DNA from: Vulcanimicrobiota bacterium
GTDB taxonomy: Bacteria > Vulcanimicrobiota > Vulcanimicrobiia > Vulcanimicrobiales > Vulcanimicrobiaceae
Length of the DNA: 61,379 nt
Assembly (NCBI GenBank): GCA_027307235.1
Contig: DAHUXH010000017.1
Location: forward strand, 1 to 61,379
Direction of reading: 5' to 3'
The first letter of the stretch is position 1. Every line of letters starts with the position of its first letter. Shown one piece after another: positions 17,258-25,360 of the stretch. The translations under genes and the position numbers were made by a program. The notes beneath the pieces are model-generated. The model made no database searches. It was not told where the DNA came from and saw only the letters and a list, made by a program, of their open reading frames with translations.

Positions 17258-18870
17258 TCCTGCGCATTCCAGGTTTCGACCACCGGATTGGGGTCGAAGC
17301 CTTTGAAGTCCGGTGACATCGGTTGCAGCAACTGATTCCACCAGAAGAAGATCTCCGGCACGTCGCTGGCCAGGAGTCGTTGGACCTTCGCGTATGCGGC
17401 CTTGCGCGTCGGATGATCGTAGTGCGTCAGCGCGACCTGTTGGGCGTCGTCCATCTCGGCAGTGCAGTAGCGCGAGTAGTTGTAGCCGGCCGGCGCGCGG
17501 TTCTTGCACGTGAAGTTTGACGAGTCATCCGGGTCGATCCCTGCTATCCACGCCGCAAGACCCAAGTCGAACGCGCCGCCTTGGAGGATGCCGCCTTCGC
17601 CGGCGGGCGCGAAGAGCACGCTGCCGGGGTAGTAGCGCAGGTGGATGTCGATGCCCACGGACTTGAGCATCGCCTGCAGCAGCACCGAAGCGCGGCGGCG
17701 CGTGACGTTCGAATTGTTCGTCACGAGCGTGAGCGACAACCGCTGGCCGTTCTTCTCGAGAATGCCGTCCGGGCCGGCAGTCCATCCGGCTTGCTGCAGC
17801 AGGGCGCGAGCTTTCGCCGGGTCGTGCGGGTAGATGGTAACGTTCGGCTCGTATGCCCACAGGAAGTCGGGCTGATCTTCGGTCGCCATCTTGACCTGAC
17901 CGTACGCCAGTTCGCTGATGAGTTGCTGCTTGTCGATGGCGAAGGCGATCGCGCGCCGCACCGTCACGTCGCGCAGCAGCGGGCGCGACGTGTTCAACCA
18001 GACGCCTTCGTACCCGTTGTAGCGCGACACGCGCAGATCGATGTTCGGAATCGACTTGAGTGCGGGGTAGTTTTGCAGCGAACCTTGGAATATCCAGTCG
18101 ATCTCGTGCGTGCGCAACTGGTTCACCGACGTGTTCTCATCGGGAATCGGCTTGATGATGATGTGCGCAAGCTTGGGTTTTCCGAGAAAGAATCCGTCGT
18201 TCGCGGTCAGCTCGATGTGGTCGCCGCGCGCCCACGAGGCGAACTTGAACGGACCGTCGGAGACCATCGGTGCGGCGTTGAACGGAATTTGGTTGACGTT
18301 GGGATACCGCGCGAGCACGTGTGCGGGGACGATCTCGATCGGACCGTCGCTCTCGGCAAAAACGGTGCTGACAAACGGTGCAAAACGCTCTTTCAAGTGG
18401 AAGACGACGGTGTGGCCGTCGGGCGTCTCGACCGAACGAACTTCGTCGTACCCGTGACGGGTAATGACGTTGTTGTCGGGATTCATCATCGCTTTCCACG
18501 AGAATGCGACGTCTGTGCTCGTCACCGGCACGCCGTCCGTCCATGTGGCGTCGGAATGCAAGTGGTAGGTGATCGTCAGGCCGTCCTTGCTGATCCCGCC
18601 GTTCTCGATCGTCGGAACGACCGTAGCGAGCATCGGCACCGGGTTTCCGGACGGGTCGGCCGTTACGAGCGGCTCAAACATGAGCCGATCGATCATGACG
18701 TCGGTCGTGTTGGACGCGAGCAGCGGGTTGAGATTCTTGGGCTCGGCTTGAATGGCGACGCGGAGCGTTCCGGGGATGGTTCCCGACGGTCCGCCGACCT
18801 TGGAACAACCGGCCACGAGTACGCCAAGGAGGATGAAGGTGCAAAGACGTCTCACGCGCGTCACTTTCAC
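17245..18870 (-). CDS. Peptide/nickel-type ABC transporter substrate-binding lipoprotein (SBP_bac_5)
   Basis: A 541-residue lipoprotein of the family 5 extracellular solute-binding proteins. A lipobox VAGC places the lipidated cysteine at residue 22. The domain shows the usual blocks (AEPKNLNPLL, TYHLHSDATWTDGVPVTSTDVAFSWK, RRAIAFAIDKQQL). GTG at 18870 is chosen because it overlaps the EF-G-like stop as GTGA. No permease or ATPase genes are adjacent, so it is an orphan in this window. A paralogous protein is encoded at 52568-54199. Confidence 0.9.
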   Translation of the reverse strand: MKVTRVRRLCTFILLGVLVAGCSKVGGPSGTIPGTLRVAIQAEPKNLNPLLASNTTDVMIDRLMFEPLVTADPSGNPVPMLATVVPTIENGGISKDGLTITYHLHSDATWTDGVPVTSTDVAFSWKAMMNPDNNVITRHGYDEVRSVETPDGHTVVFHLKERFAPFVSTVFAESDGPIEIVPAHVLARYPNVNQIPFNAAPMVSDGPFKFASWARGDHIELTANDGFFLGKPKLAHIIIKPIPDENTSVNQLRTHEIDWIFQGSLQNYPALKSIPNIDLRVSRYNGYEGVWLNTSRPLLRDVTVRRAIAFAIDKQQLISELAYGQVKMATEDQPDFLWAYEPNVTIYPHDPAKARALLQQAGWTAGPDGILEKNGQRLSLTLVTNNSNVTRRRASVLLQAMLKSVGIDIHLRYYPGSVLFAPAGEGGILQGGAFDLGLAAWIAGIDPDDSSNFTCKNRAPAGYNYSRYCTAEMDDAQQVALTHYDHPTRKAAYAKVQRLLASDVPEIFFWWNQLLQPMSPDFKGFDPNPVVETWNAQEWSI

Positions 18871-20909
18871 ACAACCGCTTTCGGTCCTACCGCTTTCGTG
18901 ATGGGAACCGGATCGTAGCGCTCGTGATGCCACGTGTATGAACCGAGACCTTGCGTCGCGGTGCGCAACTCGGTGATGTACCGGGACAGTTCGACGTGCG
19001 GGACCAAGGCTTCGACCACGTCGAAGCCGGTGCGCTCAGACGACGTCATCCCCAGAATCTGACCGCGCTTTCCGGTGAGCTGAGCGATCACGGCCGACGT
19101 GAATGCGGACGGAACCTCGACGCGCACGCGCACGATCGGCTCGAGCACGACCGGCTTGCACTTGGGCAAAGCGTCGCGCACCGCCATTCCGGCGGCGACG
19201 CGAAACGATTGCTCGCTTGAATCGACGTCGTGGTACTGACCGTCGAAGAGCGTCACTTGCACGTCGGTAACCGGAAAGCCCGACGTGCCGTGAAGTAAGG
19301 CTTCAAAGACGCCCTTCTCGACGGCCGGAATGAACTGCCGCGGCACCACGCCGCCGACGATGGTCTCGGCGAAGGCGCAGCCGCTTCCGCGCTCGCGCGG
19401 TTCGAATCGCAACCACACGTCGCCGAATTGCCCGTGTCCGCCCGTCTGATGTTTGTACCGTGAATGAATCTCGGTCGGCACGGTGATCGTTTCGAGGTAG
19501 GCGATCGCCGGTGCGGCGATCTCGACGTCGACCTTGTATTTGCGCGACAAACGCTCGACCGCGATCGTCACGTGCTGTTCGCCCGATCCCAATAGCAGTA
19601 GCTCGTTGGTGACGTCGGCGCGCTGCGTTCGCAGCGCCGGGTCTTCATCGACGATGCGCGAGAGCGCTTGTGAGAGCCGCGCTTCGTCCATGCGTTCTTT
19701 GGGTTTTATCGCGGCGGCGAACACCGGATCGGCGATCGGCGCGTGCGCAAGCATCACGGTGCGGCCGTTGCCGGTGAGCACGTCGCCGGTCGAGACGGTT
19801 TCCAGACGAGCGAGCGCGACGAGTTCTCCGGGGCCTGCTTGCGCGAGCGCTTCTTGCTTCTTGCCCTGGAGGCGGAAGAGACCGGCGCAGCGCACCTTTT
19901 CGTCTCCCCTGCTCAGATCGTTCAGGGTCGCATCCGGTTTGATCGTGCCCGCGATCATGCGCACCATCGACAGCTTTCCGGATTGCGGGTGGACCATCGT
20001 CTTGATGACGCGTGCGACCGCCGGCGCGTCGGCGTCGGGCGCGATCTCCCGGCCTTCGACGTCGAGTTGCGGAGCGTCGGCGGGTGAAGGCAGCCAGGTG
20101 ACGATCGCGCGCACGAGCGCGGCGATGCCGGCACCGGTCGCGGCGGCGCATGCCAGGACGGGCACGATCTGGTCGTGCGAGCACTCGGCGCACAGGTCGC
20201 GTTCGACCTCGTCGAGCGGCGGTTCGGCGCCTTCGAGCAGTTCTTCGAGCAGATGGTCGTCGAAGTCGGCGATCGCTTCGAGCATCTGCGCGCGGGCGCT
20301 TGCAATGCGTTCGCGCAGACTCTCTGGGAACGCGGCGATGCTCTCGCGATCGCCGTCGCAGCGGCGCGCTTTCATGTCGGTGAGATCGACAAACCCCTCG
20401 AACGACTCGGCCGCGCCGATCGGCCATTGCTCGGCCACGACATGCCGTCCGTAGGCGCTTTGCAACGCGTTCAAGGTCCCTTCGAAGTCGGCGCCGGGCC
20501 GATCCATCTTGTTGATGACGAACAGGTGCGGCAAGCGGCGCGATTCGAGATATTCAACTACGCTCAGACTGTGCGCCACCCGCGAGGGATCGGCATCGAC
20601 GACGACCACGGCGGCGTCGACGCCGGCCAGCACCTGCTTGGTCTCTTCGAAGAAGTCGATGAAGCCCGGACAATCGGCGAGTGTGATGTGAACAATGCCG
20701 TCAGCGGTGCAGTGCGCGAAACCGGCCGTGGTTGACTGCGCGTGCGCGATGCACTCGGGTTCGTGATCGGTGGTCGTGGTGCCGTCGGCGACCGATCCGC
20801 GCCGCGCGATCGCGCCGGTGAACGCAAGGATCGCTTCGGCCACGGTGGTCTTGCCCGAATGATGGGTGCCGACGATGGCGACGTTGCGAATGCGGGACAG
20901 ATCTGTCAT
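18867..20909 (-). CDS. Elongation factor G-like GTPase (EF-G2/FusA2 type)
   Basis: A 680-residue translational GTPase with the full domain order of EF-G. The P-loop is GTHHSGKTT (14-22), G3 is DCPGF (canonical DTPG), and G4 is NKMD. Domain IV/V segments include GGHGQFGDVWLRFEP and GFDVVEALVPHVELSRYI. The divergent G3 and the lack of the standard EF-G ribosomal-protein neighbours place it with the EF-G2/EF-G-like paralogues rather than the main translocase; the exact job (stress or recycling) is unknown. GGAG lies 9 nt before the ATG. Confidence 0.88.
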   Translation of the reverse strand: MTDLSRIRNVAIVGTHHSGKTTVAEAILAFTGAIARRGSVADGTTTTDHEPECIAHAQSTTAGFAHCTADGIVHITLADCPGFIDFFEETKQVLAGVDAAVVVVDADPSRVAHSLSVVEYLESRRLPHLFVINKMDRPGADFEGTLNALQSAYGRHVVAEQWPIGAAESFEGFVDLTDMKARRCDGDRESIAAFPESLRERIASARAQMLEAIADFDDHLLEELLEGAEPPLDEVERDLCAECSHDQIVPVLACAAATGAGIAALVRAIVTWLPSPADAPQLDVEGREIAPDADAPAVARVIKTMVHPQSGKLSMVRMIAGTIKPDATLNDLSRGDEKVRCAGLFRLQGKKQEALAQAGPGELVALARLETVSTGDVLTGNGRTVMLAHAPIADPVFAAAIKPKERMDEARLSQALSRIVDEDPALRTQRADVTNELLLLGSGEQHVTIAVERLSRKYKVDVEIAAPAIAYLETITVPTEIHSRYKHQTGGHGQFGDVWLRFEPRERGSGCAFAETIVGGVVPRQFIPAVEKGVFEALLHGTSGFPVTDVQVTLFDGQYHDVDSSEQSFRVAAGMAVRDALPKCKPVVLEPIVRVRVEVPSAFTSAVIAQLTGKRGQILGMTSSERTGFDVVEALVPHVELSRYITELRTATQGLGSYTWHHERYDPVPITKAVGPKAVV

Positions 20910-20984: not shown

Positions 20985-22655
20985 TCAGCGGCGCTTCTTG
21001 GTGGCCTTCTTCGACGACGCTGCTTTTGCCGGCGGCTTCTTTGCCGTGGGCTTGGCGCGCGTCGCCGTCTTTGCTACAGGCTTTTTCGTGGGTGCCTTCT
21101 TCGCGGCGGCCGTGGGACGTTTGGTGACGGTCTTCTTCGTGACCGTCTTCTTTTTCGCGGCGGGTTTTGCTTTTGTCGCCGCCGCCTTGACGGGGATCTT
21201 CTTCGCCGCGCTCACCGCGGGTTTCGCGGGCTTGGCCGCCTTCGCCGCCTTGGCCGGCTTCGCAACGGCTTTTGCAGCGGGTTTCGCCGGCGCCTTCACC
21301 GCTTTGGCAGCGGGTTTTGCGGCGGCTTTCGCCGGCTTGGCCGGCTTCTTCTCGGCCGGCGCCTTGGCGGCTTTTGCCGGTTTCACCGGTTTTGGCAGTT
21401 TTGCCGGCTTCGTCTTCGGCTCGGCGGTCTCGGACTTTGCCGCGGCGCTCGCTTTGCTGGATGCCGCCCCTTTGGCCGGCCGTTCGGTCGCGCGCTCCGG
21501 CCCGGTCGTGCGTTTCTTCGGACCCACGTCGCGCCGCGTCTTCGCCTTCGATGATTTTGAGACTTCGGGCTCTTCGGGCAATCCAAGTTCCGCGCGACTG
21601 AATCCCGTGATGCTGCTGCCGCTGATCGTTTCGCCTTGCGTACGCGACTGCGCTTCGATGTGCTCTTTGGTCGCCCGCAACGCGACGCGGGCCAAGCGCC
21701 CGGCGACCGGAAAGACCAGTTCGTTGATGTCGCACTCGTCGAGCAGCTGCAAGATCGCGTCGAACGCGCCGCCTTGATCTTTCGGGCTGTGCGCGGCGGA
21801 GCCCACCGCGATGCCGACGCCTTTGGCTTTGGCCTTGCGCAGCAGGCGGCGGTTGGCTTCGAGATACCTTCGTTTGGCGTCCTCGGAACTCTCGCGGTAC
21901 AGGAAACGCGTATTCAATTCGATCGCCATGCCGCGCGCCGCGCACGCGTCGATGATGCGATCTTCGTACTGTTCGAGCTTCTCTTTCGACGGCCAATGCC
22001 CAAACGTCGCCGGTTTATAGAAATGACCGACGATGTTGCCGGGAAGTTTTTCGACGTCCTCGATCAGCCTGGCCATGTAGAGTTCCCACAGTTGATCGAC
22101 GCCGACGAGGTCGAAGAAGTGCGTGAACTCAGGGTTGTCGTACGGCCACGGCCAATCCGGGCCTTTTTCGGGGTGCGTGATCGGCACGAAATGTACCGAG
22201 CGAATCATGCCGTCGGGACGCATGGCATCGACGATGTTCTGCGCATCGGGACGCGAGCGCGGATCGTTGTCGACCTCGGCGCCGATCGCATAGAGCATGC
22301 CGCGCCGCAAACCTTCGGAGACGACCGCTGCATGTGCGATGTCGACGCCCGCCGTCTCGGCGGCGCCGTAGAGGTCGCCGGCTTTGGCGAGCTTGAGCGC
22401 GCGCCGCAGCGTGTTCACCGCACCCGGGTCTTCGAACGTCAAGTAGTTGATATGGTCGGTGACCATGAGAAAGCGCGGTGCGCCGCGACGGCACGCATGA
22501 TAGAACCATAGGAACAGCATGCGCGCCGAATAGGCGATCGGCCGCTCCTCGCTATAGGGACGATGTTCGCCTTTGGCATGCCCGTGCGTGTCGGGAATTG
22601 CGGCGATACGTGGGTCGTTCAGCGTTCTACTTCCTTCATTCCGCGCGGGATCCAC
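20985..22655 (-). CDS. PHP-domain phosphoesterase with C-terminal histone-H1-like Lys/Ala/Pro tail
   Basis: About 556 residues. Residues 20-360 form a PHP metal-dependent phosphoesterase-like domain: H24-G-H26 and HRPYS at the start, VTDHIN, a C-terminal VGSAAHSP. Residues about 366-556 are a low-complexity tail of Lys, Ala and Pro (repeated AKPAKAAK-type units) ending in KKATKKRR, like bacterial histone-H1 proteins, and should bind DNA or RNA electrostatically. The start is uncertain: GTG 22655 lies inside pcp; a CTG overlapping the pcp stop with GGAAG upstream is an alternative. The catalytic substrate is unknown. A terminator follows. Confidence 0.8.
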   Translation of the reverse strand: MDPARNEGSRTLNDPRIAAIPDTHGHAKGEHRPYSEERPIAYSARMLFLWFYHACRRGAPRFLMVTDHINYLTFEDPGAVNTLRRALKLAKAGDLYGAAETAGVDIAHAAVVSEGLRRGMLYAIGAEVDNDPRSRPDAQNIVDAMRPDGMIRSVHFVPITHPEKGPDWPWPYDNPEFTHFFDLVGVDQLWELYMARLIEDVEKLPGNIVGHFYKPATFGHWPSKEKLEQYEDRIIDACAARGMAIELNTRFLYRESSEDAKRRYLEANRRLLRKAKAKGVGIAVGSAAHSPKDQGGAFDAILQLLDECDINELVFPVAGRLARVALRATKEHIEAQSRTQGETISGSSITGFSRAELGLPEEPEVSKSSKAKTRRDVGPKKRTTGPERATERPAKGAASSKASAAAKSETAEPKTKPAKLPKPVKPAKAAKAPAEKKPAKPAKAAAKPAAKAVKAPAKPAAKAVAKPAKAAKAAKPAKPAVSAAKKIPVKAAATKAKPAAKKKTVTKKTVTKRPTAAAKKAPTKKPVAKTATRAKPTAKKPPAKAASSKKATKKRR

Positions 22656-23329
22656 ATCTGATTCTTTCCCTTGGGCTGCTCGCGCATATCCTGCGGGGCA
22701 CGATGCTCGATCCATGGCACGATCGTCTCGATGAGCGTTTCGATGGCTTTTTTCATCAGCTCGAACGACATCGAGGGGTGTCTCTCAGGGTCGGCTGCGA
22801 TCGCCTGCGCCGGGAGATACGGCAGATGGGCGAATCCGGCGATCACCGGCGGCGCGGTGTGTTCGGTCAACGCGATGATTTCGTACAACGCCTGATTGCA
22901 GAGAAACGTGCCTGCCGAATTTGAAACGTATCCGGGAACACCCGCGGCACGCCACGCTTCCAGAACGTTCTCGAACGGAAGATTCGACAGACGCGCGTCA
23001 GGCCCGCCGCGCGCGATCGGATCGCCTTTGCGCATCACGCCGACCGCGTCGGGCTGATCGAAATCCAGCACGTTGAGCGCGACCCGCTCGAGGGCGACGG
23101 CGGGTCGTCCGCCGGCTTGCCCGAGACAGATGGCGATATCCGGCCGCGTCTCACGCACCGCCTCTTCGAGGCGGTCGCGCAGCGTGCGTGTCTCGACCGG
23201 CAGCACGCGAACGGCTATCAGGCGGCCCGCAATCGTGGAGCCGTCGAGGGCGCGAGCGACCATCTCGCTCGGATTGACGCGATCGTTCCCGAACGGTTCG
23301 AAACCGGTGATCAGAACGTGTTTAGCCAC
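22619..23329 (-). CDS. pcp: Pyrrolidone-carboxylate (pyroglutamyl) peptidase, family C15
   Basis: A 236-residue cysteine peptidase that removes N-terminal pyroglutamate from peptides. The triad is visible: Glu81 (ERVALN), Cys144 (SNSAGTFLCN) and His168 (FAHLPYLP). The N-terminal ITGFEPFG and CLGQAGGR are family signatures. Residues after about 205 extend slightly past the usual end. It lies 6 bp after the sigma/anti-sigma pair on the same strand, so it may share their transcript. Confidence 0.95.
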   Translation of the reverse strand: MAKHVLITGFEPFGNDRVNPSEMVARALDGSTIAGRLIAVRVLPVETRTLRDRLEEAVRETRPDIAICLGQAGGRPAVALERVALNVLDFDQPDAVGVMRKGDPIARGGPDARLSNLPFENVLEAWRAAGVPGYVSNSAGTFLCNQALYEIIALTEHTAPPVIAGFAHLPYLPAQAIAADPERHPSMSFELMKKAIETLIETIVPWIEHRAPQDMREQPKGKNQMWIPRGMKEVER

Positions 23330-23335
23330 CGTCGC

Positions 23336-24085
23336 TTAGGTTGGTTGCTGCGACGTGCGAAACCCTTCCATTTGCAGGAGCCGGGCCTTCATTTCCAGGC
23401 CGTAGCCGTAGTTATGCAAGTTCCCGCTCGAATCGACGACGCGGTGACACGGCAGCAGCAACGGCAGAGGATTGCGCGCCATCGCCCGGCCGACGGCGCG
23501 AGCCGCCCGCGGGCGTCCGATCTGCGAGGCGACCCACGCGTAGGAACGCACCTCGCCGGGCGGAATGCGGGCCGCCGCCTGCAGTGCGGCGCGCTCGAAC
23601 GGCGTGAGGTCGCTCGTGTCGACCAACTGCGCGTCGATGCGCCAGGTGTGGAAGAACTCGTCGACCGCGGCTTGCAGCCAGGCGGGTGCCGAAGCTTCGA
23701 GGGTCGGGCGACGCAGACGCCGCTCGACCGATTCACGCACGTGCGCGAGCGATTTTCCGGTGTCGATGGCAACGAATGCAATGCGGTGGTCGCGGAAGCC
23801 CACGAAGAGCCGGCCGATCGGCGCCGGCACAGACGCGATCAAGATAGGCTCGGTCCGATTGGCGCCCTTGATGTACGCGATGTGTTCGACGACGCGTTTT
23901 GCCAGGTCGCACGACGGCTCGGGTTCGGGCAGGCGCGAGAGCCGGAACGCGACGCCTTCGTATTCCTCAAAGAGGTCTTGGCAGGGCGGGCAGGTCCGCA
24001 GATGCGCATGGACGGCGTCTTTGAGCGATTGCGTGCAGTCGCCGCGAACGTCATCCCACAGCGCATCCACTTCACGACAACGCAT
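23336..24085 (-). CDS. Zinc anti-sigma domain fused to O6-alkylguanine-DNA alkyltransferase
   Basis: A 249-residue fusion. Residues 1-60 match zinc-binding anti-sigma (ZAS/zf-HC2) domains: Cys3, then H28-x3-C32-x2-C35 within HAHLRTCPPC. Residues about 85-249 are an MGMT/Ogt-type alkyltransferase with the suicide motif PCHRV (Cys213), the helix RARAVGRAMARNP-like recognition region (RAARAVGRAMARN) and preceding GEVRSYAW. It overlaps the ECF sigma gene by 14 bp, so they are made together. I infer that alkyl transfer could be sensed by the attached anti-sigma domain; no such fusion is known to me. ATG 24085 is chosen because the ZAS motif starts there. Confidence 0.85.
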   Translation of the reverse strand: MRCREVDALWDDVRGDCTQSLKDAVHAHLRTCPPCQDLFEEYEGVAFRLSRLPEPEPSCDLAKRVVEHIAYIKGANRTEPILIASVPAPIGRLFVGFRDHRIAFVAIDTGKSLAHVRESVERRLRRPTLEASAPAWLQAAVDEFFHTWRIDAQLVDTSDLTPFERAALQAAARIPPGEVRSYAWVASQIGRPRAARAVGRAMARNPLPLLLPCHRVVDSSGNLHNYGYGLEMKARLLQMEGFRTSQQPT

Positions 24086-24737
24086 GGTCGGAATCTCCTT
24101 CGATGGCGGTACGTCCGATTTGAGGGCCGAGGATGCGGCGTAGGATACGGACCGCCCGATGGACGTGGGATTTGACGGTGCCGATGGGTTGGTTGAGAAT
24201 CTCCGCGATCTCCGGGTGACTGCGCCCTTCGATGAAGCGCAACGTCGCGGCCGCTCGCAGGTGCATCGGCAATTGGAGCAGGGCTTGTTCGACCAGCGCC
24301 ATCTCGGCATTCTGCTCGACGATGCGCTCGGGTTGCGGCGGACCCTCACCGGCGCCGCGCAGCAGCGCATCCGGATCGGCGAGCGCGTCGAGCGCGACGT
24401 TGGCCGGCCGTTTGCTGCGCAGGCGATTGCGCGTGACATTCAGCGTGATCGTGTAGAGCCACGGCTGAAGGCGTAGGTCGAGCCGCTGATCGGGGTCCAT
24501 TTTGCCGAGCGCGCGGTAGGCGCGAACGAAGGCGTCTTGCACGATCTCTTCGGCATCCTCGCGGTTGCCTGTCATACGCAACGCGAAGCCGTAGAGCCGT
24601 CGCTGATAATCGTCGACGATCCGGTCGAATGTTTCGATGGCAGGGGCCGGCTTGCCGTTTGCCTTCGCGGCCGGCTTTGCCGACGGGACCGAAGTCGGCA
24701 CGGTGATCTCCCTGAGGAGCGGTGCGAGCGCACTCAT
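24072..24737 (-). CDS. ECF-family RNA polymerase sigma factor
   Basis: A 221-residue sigma factor with region 2 (YGFALRMTGNREDAEEIVQDAFVRAYR-type core, residues about 50-115) and region 4 (LPMHLRAAATLRFIEG, then HPEIAEILNQPIGTVKSHVHRA-type helix-turn-helix, 155-205). The first 35 residues are an Ala/Pro/Lys-rich extension not usual in the family. Its partner is the overlapping anti-sigma fusion. Autoregulation is likely but I see no convincing ECF promoter before it. Confidence 0.93.
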   Translation of the reverse strand: MSALAPLLREITVPTSVPSAKPAAKANGKPAPAIETFDRIVDDYQRRLYGFALRMTGNREDAEEIVQDAFVRAYRALGKMDPDQRLDLRLQPWLYTITLNVTRNRLRSKRPANVALDALADPDALLRGAGEGPPQPERIVEQNAEMALVEQALLQLPMHLRAAATLRFIEGRSHPEIAEILNQPIGTVKSHVHRAVRILRRILGPQIGRTAIEGDSDHALS

Positions 24738-24964
24738 ACGCTCACGCCAACACTCCCACGTGGACGCCTGGTTTCACCGCGGCCGCGAGAACTCCTCAAG
24801 GCCGGCGCGTTCTCGACAAGGGGGCGTGCTGCGCCCGCGGAACGTCTGGGCATGGTTACGCTGTGCGTACCGGGCTTCACGCGACGCCGTTCGATTCGGG
24901 AAGAATCGTGCGGCGTTTTTGTTTTGCGCGCGGCGACCGTTGTTCACGAGGGAGAGGAGTGCCA
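24738..24964. other. Divergent intergenic region
   Basis: These 227 bases separate the ECF sigma gene (minus) from the gene at 24965 (plus). No ORF is convincing. GGAAC at 24839-24843 resembles an ECF -35 on the plus strand, but a matching -10 at the right distance is not clear. A GAGAGGAG ribosome site ends just before 24965. Confidence 0.3.
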
Positions 24965-25360
24965 ATGCAGCAGGTCATCGATCCCACGGAGATAGCGTTT
25001 GAAGCTTACACGGTCTGCAGTTTCTTGCCGCACCTCGATTCGGCGCGTGCGATTCCGCTCGTGCTCATCGGCTATCGGCGGCACGAACAACCGACGATCG
25101 TGTGGCTGGTTCCCAAAGAAGGTATCGACGCCCACGGACTCACCGACGATCCCTATTATGCGAAGGTGCTTCGCGACCCGCATGCCTATTTCACGAAGAA
25201 GCTCGCGAAGTACATCGACGAGACCGCCAGCGTCAAACGCGGCATTGAAATGCTCATCGACTGCCATCAAGAGCATCTCGCCTTCACGCCGCTGACATAC
25301 GTCGAACCCCGCGCCACGCATCAACGCCCGCTTGAAGTCGAACTCGTCGGCGCGATCTAG
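24965..25360 (+). CDS. Conserved-looking protein of unknown function
   Basis: A 131-residue acidic soluble protein with no signal peptide or membrane segment. It contains HLDSARAIPLVLIGYRRHE, a DPYY segment and a central helix-forming part (KKLAKYIDETASVKRG). GAGGAG sits 5 nt before the ATG, and codon use is like the neighbours. I do not recognise the family. It is divergent from the ECF sigma gene, so it might belong to that regulon; this is speculative. A short inverted repeat lies between it and the convergent next gene. Confidence 0.7.
   Translation: MQQVIDPTEIAFEAYTVCSFLPHLDSARAIPLVLIGYRRHEQPTIVWLVPKEGIDAHGLTDDPYYAKVLRDPHAYFTKKLAKYIDETASVKRGIEMLIDCHQEHLAFTPLTYVEPRATHQRPLEVELVGAI

Follow-up and report, generated by a model that had tools for sequence, protein, structure and literature searches.

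The locus described here raises the question of why a DNA-repair alkyltransferase should be joined, in one polypeptide, to an anti-sigma domain encoded beside an ECF sigma factor gene, and whether the repair reaction could control that sigma factor. It lies in a 61,379-nucleotide stretch of DNA from a Vulcanimicrobiota bacterium (contig DAHUXH010000017.1, all of which was analysed and is called the window below), part of a 2.4-Mb, 97%-complete genome. The features of the locus are as follows.

24965-25360, forward strand: 131-aa conserved protein, divergent from the sigma gene, with a common upstream region
24749-24776, reverse strand: ECF-type promoter TGAAACC-N17-TGTT, a conserved motif 11 nt before the sigma ATG
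24072-24737, reverse strand: ECF sigma factor, regions 2 and 4, 221 aa (PF04542, 62.2 bits; PF08281, 50.4 bits; TIGR02937, 101.8 bits)
24072-24085, reverse strand: 14-bp overlap of the sigma and fusion genes
23336-24085, reverse strand: anti-sigma/O6-alkylguanine-DNA alkyltransferase (AGT) fusion protein, 249 aa, ATG at 24085 (Pfam, NCBIfam)
23858-24085, reverse strand: class I anti-sigma domain (ZAS/ASDI), residues 1-76, with C3, H28, C32 and C35
23363-23602, reverse strand: AGT catalytic/DNA-binding domain, residues 162-241 (PF01035, TIGR00589)
23447-23449, reverse strand: acceptor cysteine C213 within P-C-H-R-V, invariant in 93/93 proteins
22619-23329, reverse strand: pcp, pyroglutamyl peptidase, 6 bp downstream of the fusion gene (PF01470, 200.5 bits)

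The upstream gene encodes an ECF sigma factor that contains Sigma70 region 2 (PF04542) and region 4 (PF08281) only, with these two families and TIGR02937 all above their cut-offs. Residues 6-36 of the fusion protein match zf-HC2 (24.1 bits against a Pfam cut-off of 22.2) and residues 162-241 match DNA_binding_1 (PF01035, 102.6 bits against a cut-off of 27); NCBIfam concurs on the AGT domain (TIGR00589, 96.3 bits), in which the PCHRV site is intact (P212-C213-H214-R215-V216). A preliminary description of the window had placed a zinc anti-sigma domain (C3, H28-x3-C32-x2-C35) and an MGMT domain with PCHRV in one frame and had noted the 14-bp overlap with the sigma gene; the Pfam matches and residue positions bear out the former, and the 14-bp overlap is shared by 77 of 94 loci (in 5 of the others it is 11 bp). 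A start at 24439, which would give a 367-aa protein, has only an open frame to its credit and was rejected; M-R-C opens all 93 relatives at the short start, so the fusion is taken to begin at the ATG at 24085.

The N-terminal domain belongs with the class I (ZAS) anti-sigma factors: zf-HC2 scores above its cut-off, an N-terminal cysteine is combined with Hx3Cx2C, the gene adjoins that of an ECF sigma factor, and the model has the four-helix fold. When a profile of residues 1-76 was compared with all PDB sequences, nothing but RsiW (E=4e-4) and 3hug_B (E=0.016), which we take to be RslA of M. tuberculosis, was found at E < 0.1. The AlphaFold model of this domain alone is all helical (pLDDT 80) and contains the four expected helices, with a short kink interrupting the first. 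Foldseek gave six matches for it, of which four are chains of anti-sigma/sigma complexes (RsiW, AlgU-MucA twice, and ChrR), with weak E-values; by VIA-align its best match is RsiW 5wuq (Z 6.8 over 68 residues; MucA, Z 4.6), and since a Z of 6.8 is modest for a helical domain, the profile match weighs most. In the model of the whole fusion (pLDDT 86, pTM 0.67) the relative placement of the domains is uncertain, and Foldseek matches its AGT part to M. tuberculosis OGT (E=4e-12) and Ada-C 1sfe (E=3e-11). Judged by these sequence likenesses, the N-terminal domain would bind the neighbouring sigma factor.

The fusion was then sought in 117 genomes of the class, 103 of them in the order of the window, whose members are uncultured bacteria, and in 32 genomes from other classes of the phylum (Eremiobacterota, a synonym of Vulcanimicrobiota). 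It is present at full length in 93 of the 103 genomes of the order and as a fragment at a contig end in five more (G031, G050, G056, G076, G113); it was not found in the other five (G035, G049, G054, G100, G109), whose completeness is 61-88%. No full-length fusion was found in 14 genomes of the sister family or in the 32 from other classes, where matches are confined to the AGT part. Outside Vulcanimicrobiota the full fusion was not seen in a scan of genome contigs with patterns taken from close relatives, or in plasmid records, both of low sensitivity, and a plasmid search with the first 110 fusion residues gave no match. Identical frame and architecture in 93 genomes led us to reject a chance fusion, a frameshift or a misassembly. 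An anti-phage module was also considered and rejected, as PADLOC gave no meaningful match.

At every locus where the contig leaves room, the sigma gene lies directly upstream of the fusion gene. The preliminary description had proposed looking for this architecture in other genomes, which the survey answers, and for the same neighbours, pcp and the gene at 24965; synteny with these is kept in 51 and 59 loci, respectively. The pcp gene follows the fusion gene in only about half of the loci; it is probably on the same transcript and has no part in the mechanism proposed below. The divergent 131-aa protein has no family match in Pfam or NCBIfam. Other kept neighbours are gene 25376, a PHP-like gene and an EF-G-like gene. 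The PHP-like gene (20985-22715, reverse strand) encodes a protein with a weak PHP-domain match (23.8 bits, below the cut-off of 26.4) and a long Lys/Ala/Pro-rich tail, and its synteny with the sigma locus holds in 83 loci; the EF-G-like gene (18867-20909, reverse strand), also syntenic, encodes a 680-aa GTPase with every EF-G domain present. Because its neighbours are conserved, the sigma/fusion locus has most likely been vertically inherited.

An alignment of the 93 full-length fusion proteins has invariant residues in both parts: M1, R2, C3, W10, D11, H28, C32, C35 and H68 in the anti-sigma part, and Y182, N205, P212-V216, Y226 and K233 in the AGT part; R196, the Arg finger, is conserved in 99% of them. 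PF01035, PCHRV, the Asn hinge (N205), the tyrosine (Y182) and the Arg finger are thus all present in the AGT domain, which is predicted from its sequence to carry out alkyl transfer; a degenerate AGT was rejected, as the catalytic residues are invariant. In 12 close pairs dN/dS, calculated by the simple Nei-Gojobori method with some dS values near saturation, is 0.00-0.24 for the anti-sigma part and 0.00-0.11 for the AGT catalytic part, and is higher for the linker and N-terminal AGT lobe, which are more loosely constrained. Purifying selection acts strongly on both domains. Most relatives have further cysteines in the anti-sigma domain (C48 in 77, C51 in 74 and C59 in 63 of 93), where the fusion of the window has R48, R51 and C59. 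We note that C48 and C51 form an extra CxxC in about 80% of the relatives (among L041-L132), and it is possible that this pair is a second metal or redox site.

No AGT of the host genome other than the fusion has an acceptor cysteine. The one other PF01035 protein (L242, G000:C12:118607-118843) has PAHRV in place of PCHRV and resembles, by its sequence, an alkyltransferase-like protein that lacks the acceptor cysteine. Ada_Zn_binding is absent from the fusion and from the entire host genome, and is missing in 48 of 70 high-quality genomes of the class. Given the PAHRV of the second protein and the absence of the Ada zinc domain, the fusion is likely the main or sole O6-alkylguanine repair enzyme of its host. 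Elsewhere in the survey, six Ada-like proteins (L222, L223, L225-L227, L229; Pfam was run on L225) have an AraC-type HTH and an AGT, with the N-terminal methylphosphotriester domain missing from the listed ORFs, and several genomes with such HTH-AGT proteins have no Ada_Zn_binding whatsoever. In other families of the phylum, three proteins (L239, L259, L250; Pfam was run on L239) join an AGT to a following HhH-GPD DNA glycosylase domain in one frame, a fusion of two repair functions.

We propose, with a probability of roughly 0.6, that the locus is an alkylation-responsive, self-inducing ECF sigma switch. In the unstressed cell the anti-sigma domain of the fusion would hold the sigma factor. 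On repair of O6-alkylguanine the AGT domain would take the alkyl group irreversibly onto C213; the alkylated AGT would lose its fold or be degraded, and the attached anti-sigma domain would be disabled or destroyed with it, freeing the sigma factor. The freed sigma would transcribe its own operon and so supply fresh AGT and fresh anti-sigma domain, and the response would be shut off as fresh inhibitor accumulates until AGT stays unalkylated. Sigma binding, alkyl transfer and release upon alkylation are each expected by analogy with the protein families concerned; at the level of sequence the switch has its basis in the domains, the invariant residues, the adjacency and overlap of the genes and a conserved autoregulatory promoter. 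In hAGT and SsOGT, alkylation leads to loss of stability and to degradation of the protein (PMC4605297), and in class I anti-sigma domains it is helices 1 and 4 that bind sigma (PMC7406223). Together these properties would give the fusion a natural release route, for which unfolding or proteolysis is likelier than a subtle allosteric effect.

The promoter fits self-induction. The motif [TC]GAAAC[CT]-N16/17-[GT]GT[CT] lies upstream of the sigma gene in 74 of 91 loci, where shuffled sequences would give 0.05; the count is inflated by relatedness, yet the flanking sequence diverges freely. It is found mostly 37-40 nt ahead of the start codon, and part of the remaining loci have a diverged CGCAACC-N17-GGT(T/C) at the equal position. 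The host genome has three other strict matches, all within ORFs, and in G036 the strict search found nothing beyond the sigma promoter; across 18 genomes strict matches average about 3.4 per genome, and matches to the reversed pattern 1.4. Upstream of the other AGT and Ada genes examined the motif was not seen, bar one match far inside an ORF. Since the only promoter-positioned motif of the host genome precedes the sigma gene, the parsimonious reading of these sequences is that the sigma factor autoregulates its own operon and has few or no other strict targets. A wider regulon, implied in the preliminary description, was thus not found, and we rejected it: strict matches are few, the extra ones of the host lie inside ORFs, and G036 has the sigma promoter alone. 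The searches revealed the motif at no further promoter of an alkylation-repair gene, so the alkylation response may consist of little beyond the operon itself.

A sister operon is found in other members of the order, where in 14 Eremiobacterota loci (L137-L140, L230, L231, L233, L235, L236, L241, L243-L246) a second, related ECF sigma gene lies directly upstream of a gene for a protein of about 255 aa. This protein begins with a short helix, continues with an AGT that has PCHRV and ends in an Ada_Zn_binding-like domain (above the cut-off in three of four proteins tested with Pfam, and below it in L230). Its N-terminal helix aligns to helix 4 of the anti-sigma domain, and the zinc three-helix part is missing. 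We note that this protein, encoded next to a sigma factor, combines the sensor and repair domains of Ada but has no AraC HTH. The sister operon is also present in Nonomuraea gerenzanensis (L262), Rubrobacter radiotolerans (L266) and Streptomyces sp. NBC_00503 (L267). A tree was made with 25 other ECF sigma factors of the phylum and with E. coli RpoE and B. subtilis SigW as contrasts; the sigma factors of both systems fall on one side of a branch with support 100/97, in a tree with long branches and limited sampling.

ECF group ECF122 (exemplar Cellulomonas sp. Root930) has a conserved 6-O-methylguanine-DNA methyltransferase neighbour and is listed without an anti-sigma factor, its mechanism being given as unknown (PMC8999054). 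From its AGT context, and without the ECF122 group model, the sister system is probably ECF122 or a close relative. The window also encodes an AGT beside its sigma factor, and differs from ECF122 in that the partner protein joins a complete class I anti-sigma domain to the AGT and has no Ada zinc domain. It therefore shares the AGT neighbour of ECF122 and departs from its lack of an anti-sigma factor; its sigma factor groups with those of the sister system at 100/97, on long branches.

The sigma/anti-sigma pairing, the AGT with all its catalytic residues and the Ada-like logic put forward in the preliminary description thus have the support of the sequence, extended by invariance in 93 genomes. 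The profile and fold likeness to RsiW, the autoregulatory promoter and a sister system with the Ada zinc domain add to the pairing and to the Ada-like logic.

The strongest competitor of the alkylation switch, which we regard as possible and clearly the less probable of the two, is a redox or zinc sensor with repair cargo, in which the ZAS zinc site, like those of RsrA and ChrR, would respond to thiol oxidation or to electrophiles, and the AGT is a regulated output fused merely for co-expression. Redox sensing is common among soluble zinc anti-sigma factors (PMC7406223), most relatives have the extra conserved C48, C51 and C59 that a thiol sensor might have, and in C. glutamicum the genes upregulated upon deletion of the anti-sigma factor RshA include cg0186, a putative AGT gene (PMC3489674). 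However, the extra cysteine pair is dispensable, since the window carries R48 and R51 at these positions, and the zinc motif of RsiW, the closest solved domain, is described as structural (PMC7406223). The sister system, moreover, does without the ZAS bundle while retaining the AGT and gaining the methyl-acceptor domain of Ada, which is hard to explain if the AGT is only cargo.

It is improbable that the zinc thiolates are themselves alkylated, like C38 of Ada, so that the domain opens and frees the sigma factor while the AGT only repairs. The Zn-Cys residues are invariant, Ada is able to take up methyl groups from damaged DNA or straight from alkylating agents (PMC4437013), and the sister system carries a true Ada zinc domain; but the ZAS site is of the anti-sigma type, with three cysteines and one histidine, is not Ada_Zn_binding, and is not paired with a DNA-binding domain of its own. 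Very little weight is given to a DNA occupancy switch, in which binding of the AGT to damaged DNA, and not alkyl transfer, competes with sigma binding: the AGT has a DNA-binding domain whose catalytic and DNA-contact positions are kept, but such signalling needs no invariant acceptor cysteine, though repair alone would preserve one. Just as implausible is a relic N-terminal domain that no longer binds sigma in an ordinary operon of ECF sigma and repair enzyme, for although sister proteins without the zinc three-helix part still adjoin their sigma factors, the domain is under strong purifying selection with its metal residues invariant across 93 genomes.

The alkylation-responsive switch may be compared with known systems. 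Like E. coli Ada, the fusion would be a suicide methyl acceptor that controls its own expression, and its AGT is homologous to C-Ada19; unlike Ada, it has neither Ada_Zn_binding nor an AraC-type HTH (no Pfam match to the latter), and its control would free a sigma factor, whereas that of Ada acts by binding promoter DNA. With RsiW, RsrA and ChrR it shares the domain with an N-terminal cysteine and Hx3Cx2C, encoded right after an ECF sigma gene. ChrR is a soluble anti-sigma factor with a C-terminal sensory domain, and the fusion is likewise soluble with its proposed sensory domain at the C-terminus; it differs from all three in that this domain is a DNA-repair alkyltransferase. Other AGTs joined to another domain are AGT-EndoV of Ferroplasma and AGT-2 of C. 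elegans; among the fusions named in a 2023 review of AGTs, these included, none involves sigma or anti-sigma domains, and its text does not contain the word "sigma" (PMC10779285). The anti-sigma/AGT fusion was not described in the literature searched, though an earlier mention in ECF classification work is possible. The statement in the preliminary description that no example had been described holds, in that literature, for the fusion, and does not hold for ECF sigma factors with AGT neighbours, which are known as ECF122 (PMC8999054). What would be new is an alkyltransferase as the sensory domain of a class I pair; what was known is an unexplained ECF-AGT association.

We lean, somewhat less firmly than towards the switch itself, to a reading in which the repair reaction is the signal. 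One repaired base would release one sigma factor, the single-use transfer destroying the anti-sigma domain, so that the fusion would be a lesion counter wired to transcription with no DNA-binding regulator; the sister system, of ECF122 type, would represent another branch of one regulatory family and use the methylphosphotriester sensor of Ada. If this is true, these bacteria have an ECF-sigma alkylation response that unites sensing, repair and control in a single polypeptide and that answers, independently, the problem solved by Ada. Because SNAP-tag-type substrates alkylate AGTs, the fusion could be put to use as a sigma switch under chemical control. It would also give ECF122 a testable mechanism, in which the AGT partner is the regulator.
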